From a virus: 22,531 nt of DNA. The notes beneath the pieces are model-generated. The model was not told the origin of the DNA and searched no databases. It was given only the letters and a program-made list of their open reading frames with translations. A program made the position numbers and the translations under genes. The stretch lies in IMG/VR virus record IMGVR_UViG_3300011114_000314, positions 1-22,531 of that record; one strand, 5' to 3'. Positions 2,535-16,410 of the stretch are shown in pieces (within the stretch, counting starts at the first letter, position 1; each line of letters begins with the position of its first letter).

Positions 2535-3935
2535 ATGGCTATTTTGGACATTTTCAAGCGAAAAGAAGCGGTTTCAAGCGAATCCAATACCCTGTTTGGT
2601 CAGACCGCGCTGGGCAATAATATTGTCTACCAGGCTGGAAAGCCCCATCCGACGGTCAATACGCAGATTTTGTATGTCACCACGGCGGCAACCAATAATG
2701 CTGGCCGGCCAGTGGACATGTCGCTGCTTACGCGCAATTCGACGATTCTCGCGTGCGTAGCGGCCAAAGCCAGGGCCATTTCACAATTGCCGATCCGGGT
2801 AATGGCAGAACTGGACGATGGCACCTATGTGGACGCCTGCAAGGACGAAAAGGTAGGCAAGAGAGACAAGGCCAAGGCCAAGCAGGTTGCATCGCTCCTG
2901 GCGTCCCCTAATCGCTTCCAGAGTGCCTATGAGTTCTGGTATCAGTGGATTATGTGGTACGAATTGTCTGGCGAGGCGTTCACTTTGTGGTGGCGCGAGA
3001 ACCAGAACAATTCTCTGGAGACACCCCTGGAAATGTACATGCTGGACAGCACTCTAATTGCTGTGACCATTACACCTACCCGCTATCCCAGCTACAGGTT
3101 GTCCACACCCAGCTATGGGTTCAGCCGCGACGAACCGCTAAATGCCCATCAGGTCATGCATGTGAAAGACATGGCATGGCAAGGCTCTGCCGGCTTCAAT
3201 AAAGGCATCCTCGCGGCTGAGTTGGTCAGCCTGGATCAGGACATTGACCTGTATGCCAATTACGTCATGCAGAATGGTGCCAAGCCGTCTGGCATGTTCA
3301 CGACAGAGCAAGTTATCCCCGATGGCAAATTCAAAGAGATTGCCGCTCGCCTAAAAGAAGCTTGGGGCAGCATGACTGGAAGCCGGCAGTCTGACCCCAG
3401 CAAGCCTGGCCAGGGTATGCTGCTCGACCAGGGCATGAAGTACACGCCTCTGCAAATGCTGACCTTACAGGATGCTGATACGGAGAAATTGAAGACCCAG
3501 ACCATGAAGCGGATTTGTGGTCTGTTTGGTGTGCCGCCTGCATTGGTAGGAATTGCTGACCAAAAGTACAACAACACCCAGACTATTTTGGATGAGTTTT
3601 ACAAGTCAACAATCTATCCGACCACGGTGAATATTCAGCAAAAGATAAAGATGCAATTGTTTTCGGGCTACCCCAACCTAAAAATTGAATTTGATACCAG
3701 GGACTTTTTGAAGGGTGCGCCACTGGATCAAATGAATTTTGTGGTGGCCGGCGTTGGTGCTGGAGTTATGACTCCCAACGAAGCCCGTCAATACATGAAC
3801 ATGCCAAACATCGACGGCGGCAACGATTTGCTTGACCCTTCCGCGAAAACTGGTAACATACCGGGAACCAGCCCTCAAGACACGGGCGGTGGCGGTGGAA
3901 ATCAAACCAGAAAAATGAATATTGGTAAACAATGA
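2535..3935 (+). CDS. Portal protein, HK97 family
   Basis: A 466-residue portal subunit, the usual size for HK97-type portals, which form the twelve-part ring at one capsid vertex through which DNA passes. Family signatures: the early TRNSTILACVAAKARAISQLP segment shape (about residues 65-87), the crown/stem region with GVPPALVG (about 334-341) followed by YNNTQTILDEFYKSTIYP, and the C-terminal TPNEARQYMNMP with a following acidic DLLDPS. The tail is glycine-rich and polar (GGGGGNQTRK), typical of a disordered end. GGAG sits about seven bases before the ATG. It follows terL after 24 bases, the canonical order. Confidence 0.96.
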   Translation: MAILDIFKRKEAVSSESNTLFGQTALGNNIVYQAGKPHPTVNTQILYVTTAATNNAGRPVDMSLLTRNSTILACVAAKARAISQLPIRVMAELDDGTYVDACKDEKVGKRDKAKAKQVASLLASPNRFQSAYEFWYQWIMWYELSGEAFTLWWRENQNNSLETPLEMYMLDSTLIAVTITPTRYPSYRLSTPSYGFSRDEPLNAHQVMHVKDMAWQGSAGFNKGILAAELVSLDQDIDLYANYVMQNGAKPSGMFTTEQVIPDGKFKEIAARLKEAWGSMTGSRQSDPSKPGQGMLLDQGMKYTPLQMLTLQDADTEKLKTQTMKRICGLFGVPPALVGIADQKYNNTQTILDEFYKSTIYPTTVNIQQKIKMQLFSGYPNLKIEFDTRDFLKGAPLDQMNFVVAGVGAGVMTPNEARQYMNMPNIDGGNDLLDPSAKTGNIPGTSPQDTGGGGGNQTRKMNIGKQ

Positions 3936-4120
3936 TTTTTGCCGATACAATCAAGCAACTTTTCGCACGGCAAATTCAGCGTGCTGCGAAAAAATCTATC
4001 AAAATACAGGACATTGACAAAACCAAAGTTGATGGAGTAATTAATGACGCCAAAAAATTTGACGATGCTGTGCGAGGCCCGGCTGATGCCAGAGGCCAAA
4101 GGACAGACCGGAAAAATTGA
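3932..4120 (+). CDS. Small ORF between portal and protease, doubtful
   Basis: A 62-residue reading frame starting with an ATGA overlap with the portal stop and running 77 bases into the protease gene. The product is lysine-rich and helical at first (IKQLFARQIQRAAKKSIK), then polar. For: it is the only reading that fills the 108 bases between portal and protease, and the ATGA junction suits translational coupling. Against: no clear ribosome site, and a tail that overlaps a conserved gene. I recognise no family. It may be a real small gene or an accidental frame in a leader region. Confidence 0.3.
   Translation: MIFADTIKQLFARQIQRAAKKSIKIQDIDKTKVDGVINDAKKFDDAVRGPADARGQRTDRKN
4034..4037 (+). promoter_or_regulatory. 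Ribosome site fixing protease start
   Basis: GGAG six bases before the ATG at 4044. An in-frame TAA at 4038-4040 rules out any earlier start, so 4044 is well supported. Confidence 0.7.
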
Positions 4121-4823
4121 AGCCACTGTGACCACTTGGGGCGCTCGCGAGGGCGCTGATGGCCGGCGATTCAACTATCAGCCTGAAGGCTTCATGGACT
4201 GGGCAGAAGCTTTTTCTAAGACTGGCAAGCCACTTCCAATGTTCATGAATCACCAGTCGGAAGCAATGCCCGTCGGTGAATGGACTTCATTTGAAATGAC
4301 ACCCGTGGGAATGACCGCAGAGGGTCGAATTTACATGAATACCGCCGCCGGCAAAGACATGCACACCATCATGTCCGAGTCGCCCACCATGTTTGGTGGC
4401 GTATCCGTCGGTGCATATGCAGAAGACTATCAAATGGTCAATGCGGACGGCGAGCCAGATCAATCTGAAGAAGCCTATTTCCAAATCACCAAGGGTGGAC
4501 TCCGCGAAGTGTCCGTGGTGATGTATCCAAACAACCCTGAAGCAAACGTCAGCCGCCTAGAATACTTTCGGCCTGATGGTTCTGCTGATCTCAAGATCAT
4601 GGAGCAAGCCCTGCGTGATGCCGGGCTTTCCAAGAGTGATGCGGTCGCTGCCGCATCAACTTTCAAGAAAGTTCTGGAGCAGCGTGATGTTGTTTCAAAG
4701 CCTATTGAAAATGCGACGCCCCAGCGTGATGCTGATGCGGAAGCGACCAACCACGCAGCTATTCTCGCGGCTTTAGAGCAACGCGAACTGTTGCAAATTC
4801 TCGACAAACGACTCAAAAGGTAA
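4044..4823 (+). CDS. HK97-family prohead protease
   Basis: A 259-residue prohead maturation protease (herpesvirus-assemblin-like serine protease, PF04586 type). It would remove the capsid scaffold domain during assembly and then digest itself. Signatures: TVTTWGAREGADGRRFNYQP in the first strands; the catalytic histidine candidate in FMNHQSEAMPVGEW (about residue 69); the catalytic serine candidate in GGVSVGA (about 121); and the closing LREVSVVMYPNNPEANV (about 153-169). After residue 185 comes a charged helical tail (MEQALRDAGLSKSDAVAAA) of the kind often found at protease C-termini, possibly guiding it into the prohead. It lies between portal and capsid genes as expected, four bases before the capsid gene. 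Confidence 0.93.
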   Translation: MTPKNLTMLCEARLMPEAKGQTGKIEATVTTWGAREGADGRRFNYQPEGFMDWAEAFSKTGKPLPMFMNHQSEAMPVGEWTSFEMTPVGMTAEGRIYMNTAAGKDMHTIMSESPTMFGGVSVGAYAEDYQMVNADGEPDQSEEAYFQITKGGLREVSVVMYPNNPEANVSRLEYFRPDGSADLKIMEQALRDAGLSKSDAVAAASTFKKVLEQRDVVSKPIENATPQRDADAEATNHAAILAALEQRELLQILDKRLKR

Positions 4824-4827
4824 CACC

Positions 4828-6177
4828 ATGTCTCAAGTAATTCTCGACAAACTGGACGCCATCGAAGCCAAACAGCACGATGCTGTCCTGGCCGTGGAAG
4901 CCAAAATCCCTGCGGCTATTGATGCTGCTCGCGCCGATATCGACGCCAAAATGGCCGCTCTGGAAGCCAAAATTGCTTCCGTCCAGGCTCCCTCCATCAT
5001 TCGGGTTGCCAAGTCTGTCCGCACTGATGTGAACCGCGCCGTGCGTGAGCAATTGGCCACCTATTACAAGGGCGCTCGCCAAGGCGAAAAAGAACTGAAA
5101 ATGTTCGAAGACCAGGGTCAGTATGACGCCTACATGAAGGAAGCTGCCGGCCTAACCGCTGGTGGTGACGGTCAAGGTGGTCGCACTGGCTACGATCCTG
5201 TGTTTGTGGCTTTGCGTCTGGCCAACCAGATGCGCGGCCTGTCCCGCACCGTGGCTACCGATGGCTCCAGCTATCAGTTCCGGGTCAAGACTGGCAATGC
5301 TGGCGCCCAGTGGGGCTATGCCGTCCAAAACAACGGTTCACCCACCACGGAAAACACCAGCATCTGGCAGTTGGTGCTGAAAGACATCAACGTGCAGTTC
5401 CCGATCCGTACAGCGTCTCTGGATGACATCGATGGCCTGGAAGCCAACATCGTTGATGACATGCTCATGGAATTTGCCCAGGCAGAAGCCCAGTCCATGA
5501 TCAGCAACAACGACCAGTCTGGCACCGGCACTTCTGTGACTACTGGTGGCGCTGACGGTCTGCGTGGCTTGAATCAGTACCCTGGCGCTAACGGCACCTA
5601 TGCAGGCGGCACGACCTCTGCGGCTGCTTTTGGCACCTCTGGCACTGGCTCCACCACCGGCCTGCACAGTCTGGCGACTTACGACCAGTTGACCTCCAAC
5701 GTCAACACCGTTGGTTTGAATAACGTCACATACAAAGACGTTATCAACACCATCTACGCGCTGCCGCAACAGTACTGGACGCCAGCAACCAAGTTCATGA
5801 TTAACCCAATCCTGCTGCAAGCAATTCGCGGTCTGCAGGATACCAATGGTCGCCCGATTTTCAACTCTGTTGATTCTCTGTCGGTTGACGGTATTATTGG
5901 GCAACTGCTTGGTTTTGATGTGGTTGTCAACAAATACTTGGACAGCCCAAGTCAGTTGACAACTGCTGCTGCAGCCACCACGAGCAAGTACCCGATGTAC
6001 TTTGGCGACTGGACTCGCGGCCACACCATCATTGATCGTTTGAACATGGTGATGCGTCGGTATGACCAGACTTTGCCTGGCTATATTACGTTCTACGGTG
6101 AAAAGCGTCTGGCCACCAGCGTGCGCGATCCAAACGCACTGATCCGTTATCGTTCGACGGCCACTGCTGCCAACTAA
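4828..6177 (+). CDS. Major capsid protein 1, with scaffold-like domain
   Basis: A 449-residue HK97-fold capsid protein. Residues 1 to about 104 form a charged alanine-rich helical region (LDKLDAIEAKQHDAVLAVEA onward), the place of the HK97 delta domain that acts as built-in scaffold; no separate scaffold gene is present. The fold domain begins near KEAAGLT (104-110). Conserved blocks are shared with the next gene: DGQGGRT, IWQL, PIRTA, MLMEF, NNDQ, DGLRGLN-YPGA, ALPQQYW, and the C-terminal EKR--TSVRDP. AAAAGG precedes the ATG by about seven bases. The gene ends in tandem stops (TAATAG) followed by a hairpin, fitting strong expression. It is likely the main hexamer-forming subunit; length without the first domain would be about 345 residues. 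Confidence 0.95.
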   Translation: MSQVILDKLDAIEAKQHDAVLAVEAKIPAAIDAARADIDAKMAALEAKIASVQAPSIIRVAKSVRTDVNRAVREQLATYYKGARQGEKELKMFEDQGQYDAYMKEAAGLTAGGDGQGGRTGYDPVFVALRLANQMRGLSRTVATDGSSYQFRVKTGNAGAQWGYAVQNNGSPTTENTSIWQLVLKDINVQFPIRTASLDDIDGLEANIVDDMLMEFAQAEAQSMISNNDQSGTGTSVTTGGADGLRGLNQYPGANGTYAGGTTSAAAFGTSGTGSTTGLHSLATYDQLTSNVNTVGLNNVTYKDVINTIYALPQQYWTPATKFMINPILLQAIRGLQDTNGRPIFNSVDSLSVDGIIGQLLGFDVVVNKYLDSPSQLTTAAAATTSKYPMYFGDWTRGHTIIDRLNMVMRRYDQTLPGYITFYGEKRLATSVRDPNALIRYRSTATAAN

Positions 6178-6190
6178 TAGTTGTGCGAGA

Positions 6191-6214
6191 AGGGAGAGGC
6201 CAAAACCTCTCCCT
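6191..6214 (+). terminator. Hairpin between the two capsid genes
   Basis: A perfect nine-base-pair stem (AGGGAGAGG pairing with CCTCTCCCT) around a six-base CCAAAA loop, followed by GCATTTTC. It looks like a rho-independent terminator with a short T-run, so it is probably leaky. Placed right after the capsid stops, it could lower expression of the downstream paralogue and tail genes or protect the 3' end of the capsid message. Confidence 0.7.
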
Positions 6215-6241
6215 GCATTTTCGATTTCAACTGGAACAACA

Positions 6242-7288
6242 ATGAAAACCATTACCGAAAAAATTCTGGACGGCATCAAGCAGACGCTGGAAAATGGCAA
6301 CAAAGTCAAGATTGATCTGCGCGAAGCAGCAGGTCTTACAGGCAGCGGCGATGGTCAAGGTGGTCGGACTTATTTCGATGACGCTTTTGCTGCGCTGCGA
6401 TATGCCAACCCATTCCGCAGGTTTTCGCGGCAGGTTAAAGTTGCAGGCTCCAGCGCACAGTTTGTGGCCAAGACCGGTAATGCAGCCAACCAAACAAATC
6501 CTTGGGGCTACACGTTCACTCCCGACAGCGGCACGCCAGGAACAAACACCACGATCTGGCAATTACCGACTCGCGTGATTACGGCTCAATTGCCAATCCG
6601 CACCGCAGCCATGTCAGACATCAACTATTTGAACGAAACACTTGTTCAAGACTTGATGCTGGAATTCTCCGCCATTGAAGCAGCTTCGATGGCAGACAAC
6701 AATGACCAAGCAGGCAGCACAACGGCCACTATGGGTGCTACAGACGGTCTGCGCGGGTTGAACTACTATCCTGGCGCAGCAGGTGCTACTGCGGTTTATG
6801 GTTCGTCAGGCACGGCAATAACCAATGGTCGCCACACTTTAACCACTATTGGTCACACCAGTGCTTCGGTAGATATGGAAAGTTTGATGGATATGGCGGC
6901 AGCTTTGCCTGGTCAATATTGGGGATTGCCAGGAACTTGTTGGCACATGAGTCCAAGCTACATTCAAGGTTTGAAAAAATACGCTCACAATGGCGCTACA
7001 GGCCCATATTCATGGGTTGACACTGGAGATGCCGATGGTGGCCCAGGCATGTTCTTGCAAGGGTTCCCAGTCATTCCAAATCCGTATTTGGATGCCACTG
7101 GCACCGCAGGCAATTTTCCGGTGTATCTGGCAAACTGGCCTCTGTTTATGACCATTGCCGATGTGGAAGAAATGACCATTCAAGCGATGGAAGAAACAAC
7201 TCCAGGCTTTGTTGTTTTGTACGCAGAGAAGCGTATGGTCAGCACTGTGCGCGATCCATTTGCTGGCGTTCGTTTGATTGAGACTTAA
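6242..7288 (+). CDS. Capsid paralogue 2, short N-terminus
   Basis: A 348-residue HK97-fold capsid protein, clearly a paralogue of the preceding gene. Aligned blocks in the same order are EAAGLT, SGDGQGGRT, TIWQLP, LPIRTA, LMLEFS, NNDQAG, DGLRGLNYYPGA, ALPGQYW, PGFVVLY and EKRMVSTVRDP. It differs at the start: about 28 residues precede the shared EAAGL block, against about 105 in capsid 1, so the scaffold-like domain is nearly absent. It lies 64 bases beyond capsid 1, behind a hairpin, with only a weak GGAA site, suggesting lower output. By analogy to T4 gp23/gp24 it could be a vertex (pentamer) subunit; it could also be a decoration-like or alternative capsid subunit. The fold assignment is firm; the role is inference. 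Confidence 0.88.
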   Translation: MKTITEKILDGIKQTLENGNKVKIDLREAAGLTGSGDGQGGRTYFDDAFAALRYANPFRRFSRQVKVAGSSAQFVAKTGNAANQTNPWGYTFTPDSGTPGTNTTIWQLPTRVITAQLPIRTAAMSDINYLNETLVQDLMLEFSAIEAASMADNNDQAGSTTATMGATDGLRGLNYYPGAAGATAVYGSSGTAITNGRHTLTTIGHTSASVDMESLMDMAAALPGQYWGLPGTCWHMSPSYIQGLKKYAHNGATGPYSWVDTGDADGGPGMFLQGFPVIPNPYLDATGTAGNFPVYLANWPLFMTIADVEEMTIQAMEETTPGFVVLYAEKRMVSTVRDPFAGVRLIET

Positions 7289-7291
7289 ACA

Positions 7292-7963
7292 ATGGCTGCT
7301 GACGTTTTAGTTTCTGGCCTGCCCTTCGGGGCAGCTACTCGCAACCCGTTCAATTATTCAAAAGTTGAACAAATTGGGCGTGATAACACCACTGCCTGGT
7401 TGACCGAGACAGAAGTCACCAACCAATTGAACTTGTTTGGCGACACCAGCCAGGACACCTATCTGGCTGGCCTGGAATTGGCCGTTAGGCAAGCAATTGA
7501 AGATTATCTAGGCATGTCTATCTTCCCAGTGTCCTATCGCGTCTGGTACGGCACAGAAAGTCTTGCAGCCGCCCCCGTAAGCCTTGATTTGCCAGAAGTC
7601 AGCCAGAATGCAAATCCAGCCTTGGCTGGCGTCACGATTACTTCATTGAAATATTGGAATGATGATTTTCCAGCCACTTCGGTGACTGTTTCATCTTCGC
7701 AATATTACTATGACGTTTCTGGCAATAAATTGATTGTTTTGAGTCTGCCAACAAGTATCAACTCAAGCATGACTGCGCCAATTTATATGGATTACGCTAC
7801 AGTAGCCAACCCTTTGGCAGCTTATCCTGTTATCAAACAGGCTGGGCTTTTGTTGTTGACTCATTTGTACAACAATCGTAGCGACACCACTGAACGCAAA
7901 TTGAACAACATTCCTTTTGGTGTTTCAACTTTGCTGCGGCCATACAAGCCATTGGTGATGTAA
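7292..7963 (+). CDS. Head-tail connector (gp6/phiE125 gp8-like)
   Basis: A 223-residue connector (adaptor) protein that would form a ring under the portal. Family features: WLTETEVTNQLNL near residue 35, a helix AGLELAVRQAIEDYLGMSIF (about 58-77), the strand segment ITSLKYWND, and the closing GLLLLTHLYNNRSDTTERKL followed by PFGVSTLLRPYKP, which is the characteristic end of the phiE125 gp8-type group. It starts three bases after the capsid-2 stop with no obvious ribosome site, so translation is probably coupled. The position, directly after capsid and before a joining protein, agrees. Confidence 0.85.
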   Translation: MAADVLVSGLPFGAATRNPFNYSKVEQIGRDNTTAWLTETEVTNQLNLFGDTSQDTYLAGLELAVRQAIEDYLGMSIFPVSYRVWYGTESLAAAPVSLDLPEVSQNANPALAGVTITSLKYWNDDFPATSVTVSSSQYYYDVSGNKLIVLSLPTSINSSMTAPIYMDYATVANPLAAYPVIKQAGLLLLTHLYNNRSDTTERKLNNIPFGVSTLLRPYKPLVM

Positions 7964-8845: not shown

Positions 8846-9340
8846 ATGGCTCTGCCTAATAAAATTCTTCCCGGCTTTAGCGCCTCAATGTATGCTCAAC
8901 CGTCAGCCAGTCCGACGCCTTTGACCCTGGCGCAACTGTCTCTGGTGGCCAGCACATCAGGCATTGCAATATCGGGCAATTTGATGAACATCGAAGCAAT
9001 TCCTGCCTTTGGCCAGGACGATGCTGTGGCATCGTTTACGGTTGCCGGCTCGCGTCAATCTGACAAGCTACCTTCGCAGTCTGCTCCCACTTCAATGACG
9101 ATCACATCCGCATGGAATCCATCGGATGCCGTGACGTTGCTGCTGCGCGGCGATGCTTATAGTGGCACGGTGGATCGCACATTTGTGATTGCTGCCACCG
9201 ACGGCACCAACATTGTCTACTATGCCTTCAACGGGCGAGTTTCACAATTTACTATTGATGCCCAGCCTGGCGCAGAAGCCAAGTGCATGTATTCCATTCA
9301 CCCCCGTGGCAATCTGTACGGGTGGAGCAACAACGCTTAA
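8846..9340 (+). CDS. Major tail tube protein, copy 1
   Basis: A 164-residue tail-tube subunit, lying immediately after the tail terminator as in lambda-like operons. Features: an N-terminal PGFSASMY stretch, the block NIEAIPAFGQDDAVASF, then GSRQSDKLP and APTSMTITSAWNP, a strand-rich middle and a conserved end (FNGRVSQFTIDAQPG and HPRGN-YGWSN). Tube proteins of this class polymerise as hexamer rings around the tape measure. A GAAGGA site lies upstream, in a 34-base gap. Its close paralogue follows within 15 bases. Which of the two forms the bulk of the tube cannot be told from sequence. Confidence 0.85.
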   Translation: MALPNKILPGFSASMYAQPSASPTPLTLAQLSLVASTSGIAISGNLMNIEAIPAFGQDDAVASFTVAGSRQSDKLPSQSAPTSMTITSAWNPSDAVTLLLRGDAYSGTVDRTFVIAATDGTNIVYYAFNGRVSQFTIDAQPGAEAKCMYSIHPRGNLYGWSNNA

Positions 9341-9355
9341 TCAGGAGAAATCATT

Positions 9356-9874
9356 ATGGCAGCACCAGCATTAGTACTACCCGGCTTTAGCGCATCGATG
9401 TGGATGCAGACCGGCGCAACGCCCACAGCGTTCACCACAGCCAACTTGTCTGTTTGGTCAGCGCAAGTGGCCACCCTGGTCGGCACCGTGGCCAACGGCA
9501 CTGGCGCATCTGGCACTGCATTGAATATTGAAGCTGTGCCGGCTTTTGGCCAAGATGACGCAGTGGCCAGTTTCGGTGTGGCAGGGTCACGGCAGTCTGA
9601 CAAAATCCCAACGCAATCGGCACCGACCTCCATGACCATTACTGCAGCCTGGAATCCTTCAGATGCCGGCCTGCTTTTGATTCGTGGTGATGCCTACAGC
9701 GGCGTGATTGATCGCACATTTGTCGTGGCAGCGGTCAGCGGCGTTAGCACGATTGCTTATGCTTTTAATGGTCGCGTGAGCCAATTTACCATTGACGCAC
9801 AGCCTGGTGCCGAGGCCAAGTGCATGTTTACCATCCATCCTCGCGGCAACCAGTATGGCTGGAGCAACACATAA
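9356..9874 (+). CDS. Major tail tube protein, copy 2
   Basis: A 172-residue paralogue of the preceding tube protein, sharing PGFSASM, NIEA-PAFGQDDAVASF, VAGSRQSDK, the TSMTIT-AWNPSDA block, RGDAYSG, DRTFV and a C-terminal stretch of 20 identical residues. It differs mainly by a longer, alanine/glycine/threonine-rich loop near residues 35-52. In the identical 20-residue stretch, 11 of 20 codons differ from copy 1 but all changes are silent, so the duplication is old and both copies are under selection. A strong AGGAG lies ten bases before the ATG. The stop overlaps the next start (TAATG). Possible roles: mixed tube, a specialised ring at one end, or the true tube with copy 1 as accessory. Confidence 0.85.
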   Translation: MAAPALVLPGFSASMWMQTGATPTAFTTANLSVWSAQVATLVGTVANGTGASGTALNIEAVPAFGQDDAVASFGVAGSRQSDKIPTQSAPTSMTITAAWNPSDAGLLLIRGDAYSGVIDRTFVVAAVSGVSTIAYAFNGRVSQFTIDAQPGAEAKCMFTIHPRGNQYGWSNT

Positions 9875-14415: not shown

Positions 14416-16410
14416 ATGTCAGTTCCAAATACATTTGCCAGCGCAACCAGTTCCATTCCTCTTGCAAACCTAGACGCAAACTTTGCGTACTATGACGCAG
14501 CATTCGCAATCTCAGGCTCGGCAGTCACGTTTGCAGGCAGCATCACGCTGACCACAGGCACAGCCAACGGAGTGCCGTACCTTAACGCCAGCAAGGTGCT
14601 GACCAGCGGCGCTGTGTTGACATTTGATGGCACCACTCTTTCAAGCACAAAGTTTGCTGGGGCATTGAACGGCACCGTCGGGGCTACAACGGCGAATACG
14701 GGGGCATTTACTACCCTCACCACCTCCAGCACAGTCACACACAACGGCGGCACAGCCAACGGCGTGGGCTACCTTAACGGCAGCAAAGTCTTGACCACGG
14801 GGTCTGCGCTGACGTTTGATGGGACAAGCCTGAGTGTCAATGGCGGTCGTGTTAATGCATCAACTGCTGATGTGGGTGGAACAATAGGCGGGACAGCACA
14901 GTTTGTTACTGTTAACACAAATGGGGCGGTAGGAGACTTTTCAGGCATTCGCTTTAACTATTTTAACTCTGGTGATAGCGGAGGAAAGTTTGCTTACATT
15001 GGTGCTGTATTGACTAGTAATGCTACAAATGGTCTTGCAGACATTGTGTTTGGTGTAAAAAGTAGCACTGCAACCACAACAATTAGCGAACAAATGCGCC
15101 TCACCTCCACCGGCCTAGCAGTCACCGGGACGCTGAGTGCAACTAGCTCTTCGGTTCAAGAGATTGCTACTTTTGCCCACCCTAGCACATCAACCTCTGC
15201 TAACAATGGTGGTGCGGTAATAAGGATACAAAACACAAGCAGCACTAACGGCAATATGCAAAGCGTGCTCTTTGCAAATTCAAGCGGAACAGTAACAAGT
15301 GGCATTTTTGGTTACAACGCAAACCAAAGCACTAACGAAGGTTTTTTAACATTTGGCACTAGAAATTCTGCTGGCACTTTTGGCGAACGGATGCGCCTCG
15401 ACTCCAGCGGTAACTTGGGTATTGGGACTACTACACCCGCACTATATGGATTTTTGGGAGTTGCAAAAGCAATCACCATTGACTCTGTCAGCGTCAGCGC
15501 AGGATTTTCTGATGCAGTAACAGGAACTCTTAGAATTACTCATGCGAGTGGAAGTGTTGGTATAAATTTCGACAGTACTAATTTAATATTTCAATCTGGC
15601 GGTACAACTCCAACCACCAGAATGACCCTTAACTCCAGCGGTAACCTAGGGCTGGGAGTGACGCCTAGTGCTTGGGACTCAGTTTACAGAGCATTTCAAG
15701 TTGGCGCACAAGGAGCTTTTTGGGCTAATGCAACAGCCGCTGATATTTATATGTCGGCCAACTATTTATATGATGGCGCAAATAAATACATAGCAAATGG
15801 CTATGCGTCTTTTTATTCACAAAATAGTGGCGCACATATTTGGAAGACAGCCCCAAATAACACATCAGGTGCGGGTGCTGCCGCTACCTTCACCCAAGCA
15901 ATGACGCTGGATGCCAGCGGCGCTCTTTTAATCGGTGTAACAGCTTCAAGCACTACTGTTTTCCAAGAGATTAAATACACAACAGCATTTCTTGGCACAC
16001 GTTATATCAACACTTCATCTAGTGCGTCCACTGTTATGGATTTTGTTGCGGCATCAGCGCAAGTTGGCTCTATTACAACTTCTGGTTCTGCAACGCTGTA
16101 TAACGTCACATCTGACTATCGTTTAAAAACTGTTACTGGTGCAGTATCAGGCCAAGGCGCACGTATTGACGCACTCCAGCCTATTGAGTACACATGGAAC
16201 GTCAGCGGTGAGCGCACTCGCGGTTTCTTGGCGCACCAATTCCAAGAGGTCTATGCAGGCAGCGTAAGCGGCACTAAAGACGCTGTGGACGCTGATGGCA
16301 AGCCTATGTATCAAGCCATGCAAGCCAGCACCTCAGAGGTCATTGCAGACCTTGTAGCTGAACTCCAATCCCTCCGCGCCCGTGTCGCTCAACTTGAAAG
16401 CAAACCATGA
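14416..16410 (+). CDS. Tail fibre with S74 chaperone domain
   Basis: A 664-residue fibre protein. The last 99 residues are an intramolecular chaperone of the peptidase S74 type: SDYRLK with the catalytic serine at 566 (codon at 16111) and nearby lysine, then IDALQPIEYTWNVSGERTRG, GFLAHQ, and a final helix (VIADLVAELQSLRARVAQLE). Such domains trimerise the fibre and then cut themselves off before the serine. The shaft is repetitive, low in charge and rich in G, S, T and N: a 64-residue-spaced repeat near the start and four copies of an M-(R/T)-L-x-S/A-x-G motif at about residues 227, 326, 403 and 496. It would bind a host surface molecule. It lies unusually between tape measure and distal tail genes. 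Confidence 0.92.
   Translation: MSVPNTFASATSSIPLANLDANFAYYDAAFAISGSAVTFAGSITLTTGTANGVPYLNASKVLTSGAVLTFDGTTLSSTKFAGALNGTVGATTANTGAFTTLTTSSTVTHNGGTANGVGYLNGSKVLTTGSALTFDGTSLSVNGGRVNASTADVGGTIGGTAQFVTVNTNGAVGDFSGIRFNYFNSGDSGGKFAYIGAVLTSNATNGLADIVFGVKSSTATTTISEQMRLTSTGLAVTGTLSATSSSVQEIATFAHPSTSTSANNGGAVIRIQNTSSTNGNMQSVLFANSSGTVTSGIFGYNANQSTNEGFLTFGTRNSAGTFGERMRLDSSGNLGIGTTTPALYGFLGVAKAITIDSVSVSAGFSDAVTGTLRITHASGSVGINFDSTNLIFQSGGTTPTTRMTLNSSGNLGLGVTPSAWDSVYRAFQVGAQGAFWANATAADIYMSANYLYDGANKYIANGYASFYSQNSGAHIWKTAPNNTSGAGAAATFTQAMTLDASGALLIGVTASSTTVFQEIKYTTAFLGTRYINTSSSASTVMDFVAASAQVGSITTSGSATLYNVTSDYRLKTVTGAVSGQGARIDALQPIEYTWNVSGERTRGFLAHQFQEVYAGSVSGTKDAVDADGKPMYQAMQASTSEVIADLVAELQSLRARVAQLESKP
14557..14838 (+). 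repeat. In-frame repeat in fibre gene
   Basis: Two copies of a roughly 30-codon unit (residues about 48-77 and 112-141; bases 14557-14646 and 14749-14838), 192 bases apart. Both read GTANG then YLN-SKVLT-G then LTFDGT-LS. The first 12 bases (GGCACAGCCAAC) are identical. Confidence 0.8.

Follow-up and report, generated by a model that had tools for sequence, protein, structure and literature searches.

Small freshwater phages of one clade carry two tandem genes for HK97-fold capsid proteins, cap1 and cap2. The pair is fixed in this clade, and cap2 is under purifying selection. The cap2 protein is probably (we put this at about 55%) a minor HK97-fold subunit of the same prohead as cap1, most likely the pentamer (vertex) protein, comparable to T4 gp24. 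This suggests that these phages assemble their heads from two distinct proteins, in much the way that T4, a far larger phage, does. The window, by which is meant the whole 22.5-kb fragment of a virus record that was analysed, reads as the packaging and structural module of a tailed phage. It encodes a large terminase, portal, prohead protease, the two capsid proteins, a connector, two tail-tube-like proteins, a tape measure and the tail tip. The features of the head region are collected in Table 1.

Table 1. Positions of the head genes and of the segments discussed in the text, numbered along the window.
Feature	Position	Strand	Match or sequence	Remark
Portal protein gene (466 aa)	2535..3935	+	PF04860 7.8e-62; phrog_12 8e-71	upstream neighbour
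S78/U35-type prohead protease gene (259 aa)	4044..4823	+	PF04586 1.4e-7; phrog_80 head maturation protease 1.3e-10
cap1 (449 aa), HK97-type, presumed major capsid protein	4828..6177	+	PF05065 1.5e-31; TIGR01554 1.1e-31
cap1 N-terminal 104 residues, helical, delta/scaffold-like	4828..5139	+		no counterpart in the cap2 alignment
cap1 residues 105-449, presumed shell domain of the mature protein	5140..6174	+		begins with the shared EAAGLT block; cleavage presumed
G+C-rich hairpin, terminator- or attenuator-like	6191..6214	+	AGGGAGAGG-CCAAAA-CCTCTCCCT	within the 64-nt cap1-cap2 gap
cap2, second HK97-fold capsid protein (348 aa)	6242..7288	+	PF05065 8.2e-12; TIGR01554 5.6e-14	proposed vertex/minor shell subunit
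cap2 27-residue leader ahead of EAAGLT	6242..6322	+		possible short propeptide or targeting sequence
Fastest-evolving cap2 segment, mainly presumed A domain	6720..7200	+		mostly 45-77% identical to L006 (nt)
Head-tail connector gene (223 aa)	7292..7963	+	phrog_40 head-tail adaptor Ad1 3.4e-12	downstream neighbour

Both capsid ORFs are intact and each starts with ATG. The two proteins are 41% identical over 348 positions (BLASTP: 241 bits, E 7e-81), which is far beyond chance. Each on its own passes the curated cut-offs of PF05065 (Phage_capsid; cap1 110.3 bits, cap2 45.5, cut-off 24.2) and TIGR01554 (NCBIfam major_cap_HK97; 110.3 and 52.1 bits, cut-off 27.5). The tandem of HK97-fold capsid genes proposed in an earlier, sequence-only reading of this DNA was thereby confirmed, and all of the motif blocks that it had listed as shared were found in the cap1/cap2 alignment. 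A search of the PDB with the cap1 profile detected the RcGTA capsid protein (6tba/6tb9, 4e-9). The AlphaFold model of cap2 aligns with the RcGTA capsid (6tb9_A5) over 227 residues at 3.7 A (Z 18.0), which is the nearest solved fold to this model; the next-best structural matches were cf-PICI and HK97-type capsids. Because of the profile matches and this alignment, cap2 is considered a true HK97-fold protein and not a mere sequence echo. The pLDDT values are modest (cap2 56, cap1 45), and the cap1 model was dropped as fold evidence since its quality was too low. T4 gp24 was not among the best Foldseek/VIA matches of these models, which carries no weight given their quality.

The homology shared by the two proteins opens with an EAAGLT block at residue 105 of cap1 and residue 28 of cap2, in agreement with the approximate lengths given earlier for the sequence ahead of it (about 105 and about 28). 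In the low-confidence cap1 model, the leader consists of helices at residues 2-50 and 57-81. cap2 has no counterpart to cap1 residues 1-104, so the claim that one of the two capsid proteins has no scaffold domain also held. In the structure alignment, residues 50-52 of the cap2 model fall on HK97 residue 128, and cap2 residue 28 therefore corresponds approximately to HK97 residue 104. HK97 gp5 is cut so that residue 104 becomes the first residue of the mature protein. The homology thus starts about where gp5 is cut, and cap2 therefore is without the delta (scaffold) domain. Read most simply, cap1 has a delta domain that would act as scaffold, and cap2 has none. When the cap2 leader was compared with the cap1 delta domain, the mean local score was 22.6 vs 21.1 for shuffled sequences, and homology between them was not demonstrable.

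Across the relatives, leader lengths are mostly 103-112 aa in cap1 and 22-34 aa in cap2. Lysine or arginine stands directly ahead of the shared block in ~85% of cap1 and ~70% of cap2 sequences. Either leader may be cleaved at this block by the prohead protease, the presumed cutter of cap1 and perhaps also of cap2. The protease gene additionally matches TIGR01543 (proheadase_HK97) at 3.8e-9, under that profile's cut-off. Between the portal and cap1 only the protease is encoded, and from portal to connector the gene list of the window shows no gene for a separate scaffold. The 104-residue N-terminal domain of cap1, the adjoining S78-type protease and the absence of a separate scaffold gene are the features of a self-scaffolding HK97-type head.

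The gap between cap1 and cap2 contains a hairpin. Since the adjoining gaps in the window are only 4 nt (protease-cap1) and 3 nt (cap2-connector), the hairpin marks a step after the major capsid gene. A G+C-rich hairpin, often followed by a T run, is present in 107/107 distinct cap1-cap2 gaps, which are 50-82 nt long in the set analysed. The mean folding energy of the gaps is -21.1 vs -13.5 after shuffling (median z -2.8), and compensatory changes occur in 7/9 hairpin pairs in an alignment of 28 sequences. It is the family that carries this claim: a terminator scan did not call the window's own hairpin, which has a weak T tail. No Rfam family matched the hairpin. The effective codon number is 40 for cap1, 46 for cap2 and about 50 for their neighbours, which fits cap1 being the most and cap2 the second most expressed of the six genes compared. 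Together, hairpin and graded codon bias fit cap1 as the major and cap2 as the minor shell protein. Ribosome-binding strength showed no cap1/cap2 difference in the expected direction and was uninformative. The hairpin would act by attenuation; a 3' stabilising role is possible.

Viral contigs were searched with cap2 as a single query and as an alignment, and with the cap1 and cap2 proteins of the cultured Methylophilaceae phage P19250A (KX815270); genome contigs were scanned once. Together these yielded 235 loci, among them the window, P19250A and two contigs from MAGs. Some contigs were retrieved repeatedly, and the set reduces to 150 different junctions of 600 nt and 131 different protein pairs in which both members are complete. 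The proposal made from the DNA alone had depended on the pair recurring in related genomes and on cap2 not showing relaxed selection. On both points the outcome favours cap2: cap1 is followed by cap2 on the same strand in 219/219 loci with room for both (re-fetched contigs included), and the median dN/dS of cap2 is 0.083. The remaining 16 loci stop at a contig edge. In the unbiased subset, retrieved through cap1 alone, the pair is present in 51/51. Candidate viral contigs of this group number at least 582. When prophage capsids served as outgroup, all cap1 and all cap2 proteins formed monophyletic sister groups in the tree (SH-aLRT 98 each), and one duplication therefore took place before the clade radiated.

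Among 50,697 phage records cap2 was detected only in P19250A, where it is labelled 'hypothetical protein'; annotation thus misses the second capsid gene. P19250A has the same pair in the same order, with cap1 63% and cap2 58% identical to the window proteins, and unlike the window it has one tail-tube-like gene instead of two. The presumed major tail (tube) gene of the window is itself a tandem (8846-9340 and 9356-9874, 69% identical, phrog_158). Two copies are found in 92/99 loci with room and one copy in seven, P19250A among these. The phage Venkman (MT375522) is reportedly syntenic with P19250A. It was rejected as a test of the pair: going by the annotation, its head genes belong to a different type, that of short-tailed phages with scaffold plus capsid, and the whole head and tail module is unrelated. 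Tandem PF05065 genes were detected in 0 of 200 background genomes. This count is not used as evidence, because the same search missed cap2 in a known pair-bearing genome (G002).

For comparison with cap2, the median dN/dS is 0.137 in cap1 and 0.055 in the portal gene. At 80 conserved positions the two paralogs have the same residue, and another 34 are conserved within each paralog and differ between them. This pattern suggests two sub-functionalised proteins with distinct fixed roles. Distances between cap2 sequences correlate with those of the other head genes at 0.57-0.65, vs 0.78-0.94 among the others. In the presumed A domain and spine helix, whose limits were estimated from the predicted model, cap2 has diverged twice as much as cap1 (A-domain pairwise divergence 0.467 and 0.232). 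Most tiles flanking the fast segment of cap2 are 85-98% identical at the nucleotide level between the window and its near relative L006. Identity drops to 45-77% over most of nt 6720-7140, and this low-identity segment would most simply be a recombinational swap between near-identical phages. A large repetitive tail protein (14416-16410), whose C-terminal end resembles an intramolecular chaperone (peptidase S74-like) domain, also loses identity to L006 from about nt 14700.

As a scaffold-less paralog that is fixed beside cap1 and apparently expressed at a lower level, cap2 is most simply a minor component of the shell, and pentamers are one obvious geometric niche for a closely related minor component. 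In the vertex model, cap1 would be the scaffold-bearing major capsid protein that forms hexamers. cap2 would be produced at a lower level and incorporated into the cap1 prohead, recruited through contacts with cap1, through its short N-terminal leader, or both. Its pentamers would occupy 11 of 12 vertices, giving about 55 copies of cap2 vs about 360 of cap1 if T=7. The S78-type protease would remove both leaders at the homologous site, and the hairpin after cap1 would set the ratio by lowering or uncoupling cap2 transcription. T=7 is the head size expected for a genome of ~40 kb; the P19250A genome is 38.7 kb, related contigs reach 40.9 kb and the group lies at about 39-41 kb. Virion presence, vertex location and copy number of cap2, the cleavage of both leaders and the role of the hairpin are what we infer in this model. 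Its weak point is that the A domain of cap2, expected at the centre of the capsomer, is surprisingly the most variable part of the protein. As a counterpoint, a hairpin after the major capsid gene may balance cap1 against all later genes. A second gene is also not required, because HK97 makes its pentamers from a single protein and cap1 could in principle do likewise.

The main rival to the vertex reading is that cap2 co-assembles with cap1 in mixed hexamers, at fixed positions or as a random mosaic, and does not form pure pentamers. A precedent exists in the Family 2B encapsulin Enc1/Enc2 of Streptomyces lydicus, in which two HK97-fold paralogs co-assemble in one shell of variable composition and irregular tiling (PMC12407261). 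Many core positions are common to cap1 and cap2, and the codon bias of cap2 is fairly high, as mixed hexamers would lead one to expect. We nevertheless find this arrangement rather unlikely: cap2 is without the delta domain, the normal template of hexamer assembly; with its weaker codon bias and the conserved hairpin ahead of it, cap2 looks like a distinctly minor partner; and the 34 fixed differences suggest distinct niches. The likeness to Enc1/Enc2 is that of two paralogous HK97-fold proteins, whereas the encapsulin is a cellular compartment without portal or protease, with irregular mixing and no described scaffold asymmetry. A two-component encapsulin was rejected as an identity for the pair, which is flanked by the protease and connector genes of a phage head module.

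It is unlikely that cap2 is a low-copy subunit at one place, for example the portal vertex, or a factor for size or nucleation. The short leader and the reduced expression signals would suit any low-copy head protein, and the gene adjoins that of the connector, but the codon bias of cap2 exceeds that of connector, protease and portal and suggests more than a few copies. Quite improbable is an alternative particle, in which cap2 conditionally replaces cap1 (in other hosts or for other head sizes), or an outer, decoration-like layer. The middle of cap2 apparently recombined and evolves at twice the rate of its counterpart in cap1, as an exposed or interchangeable part would. Against this, every genome keeps the two genes in the same tandem order with one hairpin, which suggests that they are used together, and we know of no HK97-fold protein that serves as a decoration layer. 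It is very improbable that cap2 is a dispensable relic or a selfish duplicate that plays no part in the virion, given that no locus with room has lost it, that its dN/dS is low and that one ancient duplication was retained through divergence to 55% identity.

The vertex reading draws on T4, where gp23 is the hexamer protein and gp24 its paralog at the pentamer vertices, a role that is proven. T4, a myovirus of 170 kb, has a prolate head and a separate scaffold core, and its gp23 and gp24 are about 20% identical. Here, by contrast, the phage is of ~40 kb, the delta-like scaffold is fused to cap1, the paralogs are 41% identical and the vertex role is deduced from the genes. Two features make up the analogy: cap2 is an HK97-fold paralog kept beside the major protein, and its leader is much the shorter. 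The T4 head protease trims both proteins, with 65 residues removed from gp23 and 10 from gp24 (PMC9958956), and a protease gene belongs to the module here as well. The order of portal, S78-type protease and a capsid gene with a ~104-residue delta-like domain is that of HK97 gp5 and RcGTA. In those, one capsid gene serves both hexamers and pentamers, whereas here a second, scaffold-less copy is present.

One capsid protein is the rule in phages of ~39-41 kb. A 2026 review ties the two-gene capsid solution to the large genome of T4 (PMC13185644). The sequence-only reading had called the pair unusual in an HK97/lambda-type plan, which agrees with this review; no other case was found, and the claim stands as far as a non-exhaustive survey of other phages goes. 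In the open-access literature no report of this capsid pair was found, nor a described case of a separate pentamer protein in HK97/GTA-type phages of ~40 kb. The separate pentamer protein as such is already known from T4; the hairpin between cap1 and cap2 and the grading of codon bias from cap1 to cap2 are new here. If the vertex reading is true, the split between hexamer and pentamer genes is no luxury of big genomes, and the pair shows a shell protein shedding its scaffold after duplication. Since the group is large and has a cultured member, the hexamer/pentamer question is directly testable.

A more general proposal is tentative. A widespread group of small freshwater siphoviruses might share a T=7-sized shell of two proteins, in which a self-scaffolding hexamer protein is combined with a scaffold-less vertex protein whose axial domain would be an exposed, fast-evolving and exchangeable cassette, the ratio being set by a conserved, transcription-attenuating hairpin.

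Additional ORFs were observed at several points of the module. In one contig (L024/L102), cap1 and cap2 are separated by a GIY-YIG-like ORF of 199 aa (L024:5892-6536) that probably encodes a homing endonuclease; similar ORFs follow the terminase gene in L051 and precede the tube genes in L037. In L063, a P-loop-kinase-like ORF (5361-5890) separates cap1 from the protease gene, and the C-terminus of its product is similar to that of the protease itself.
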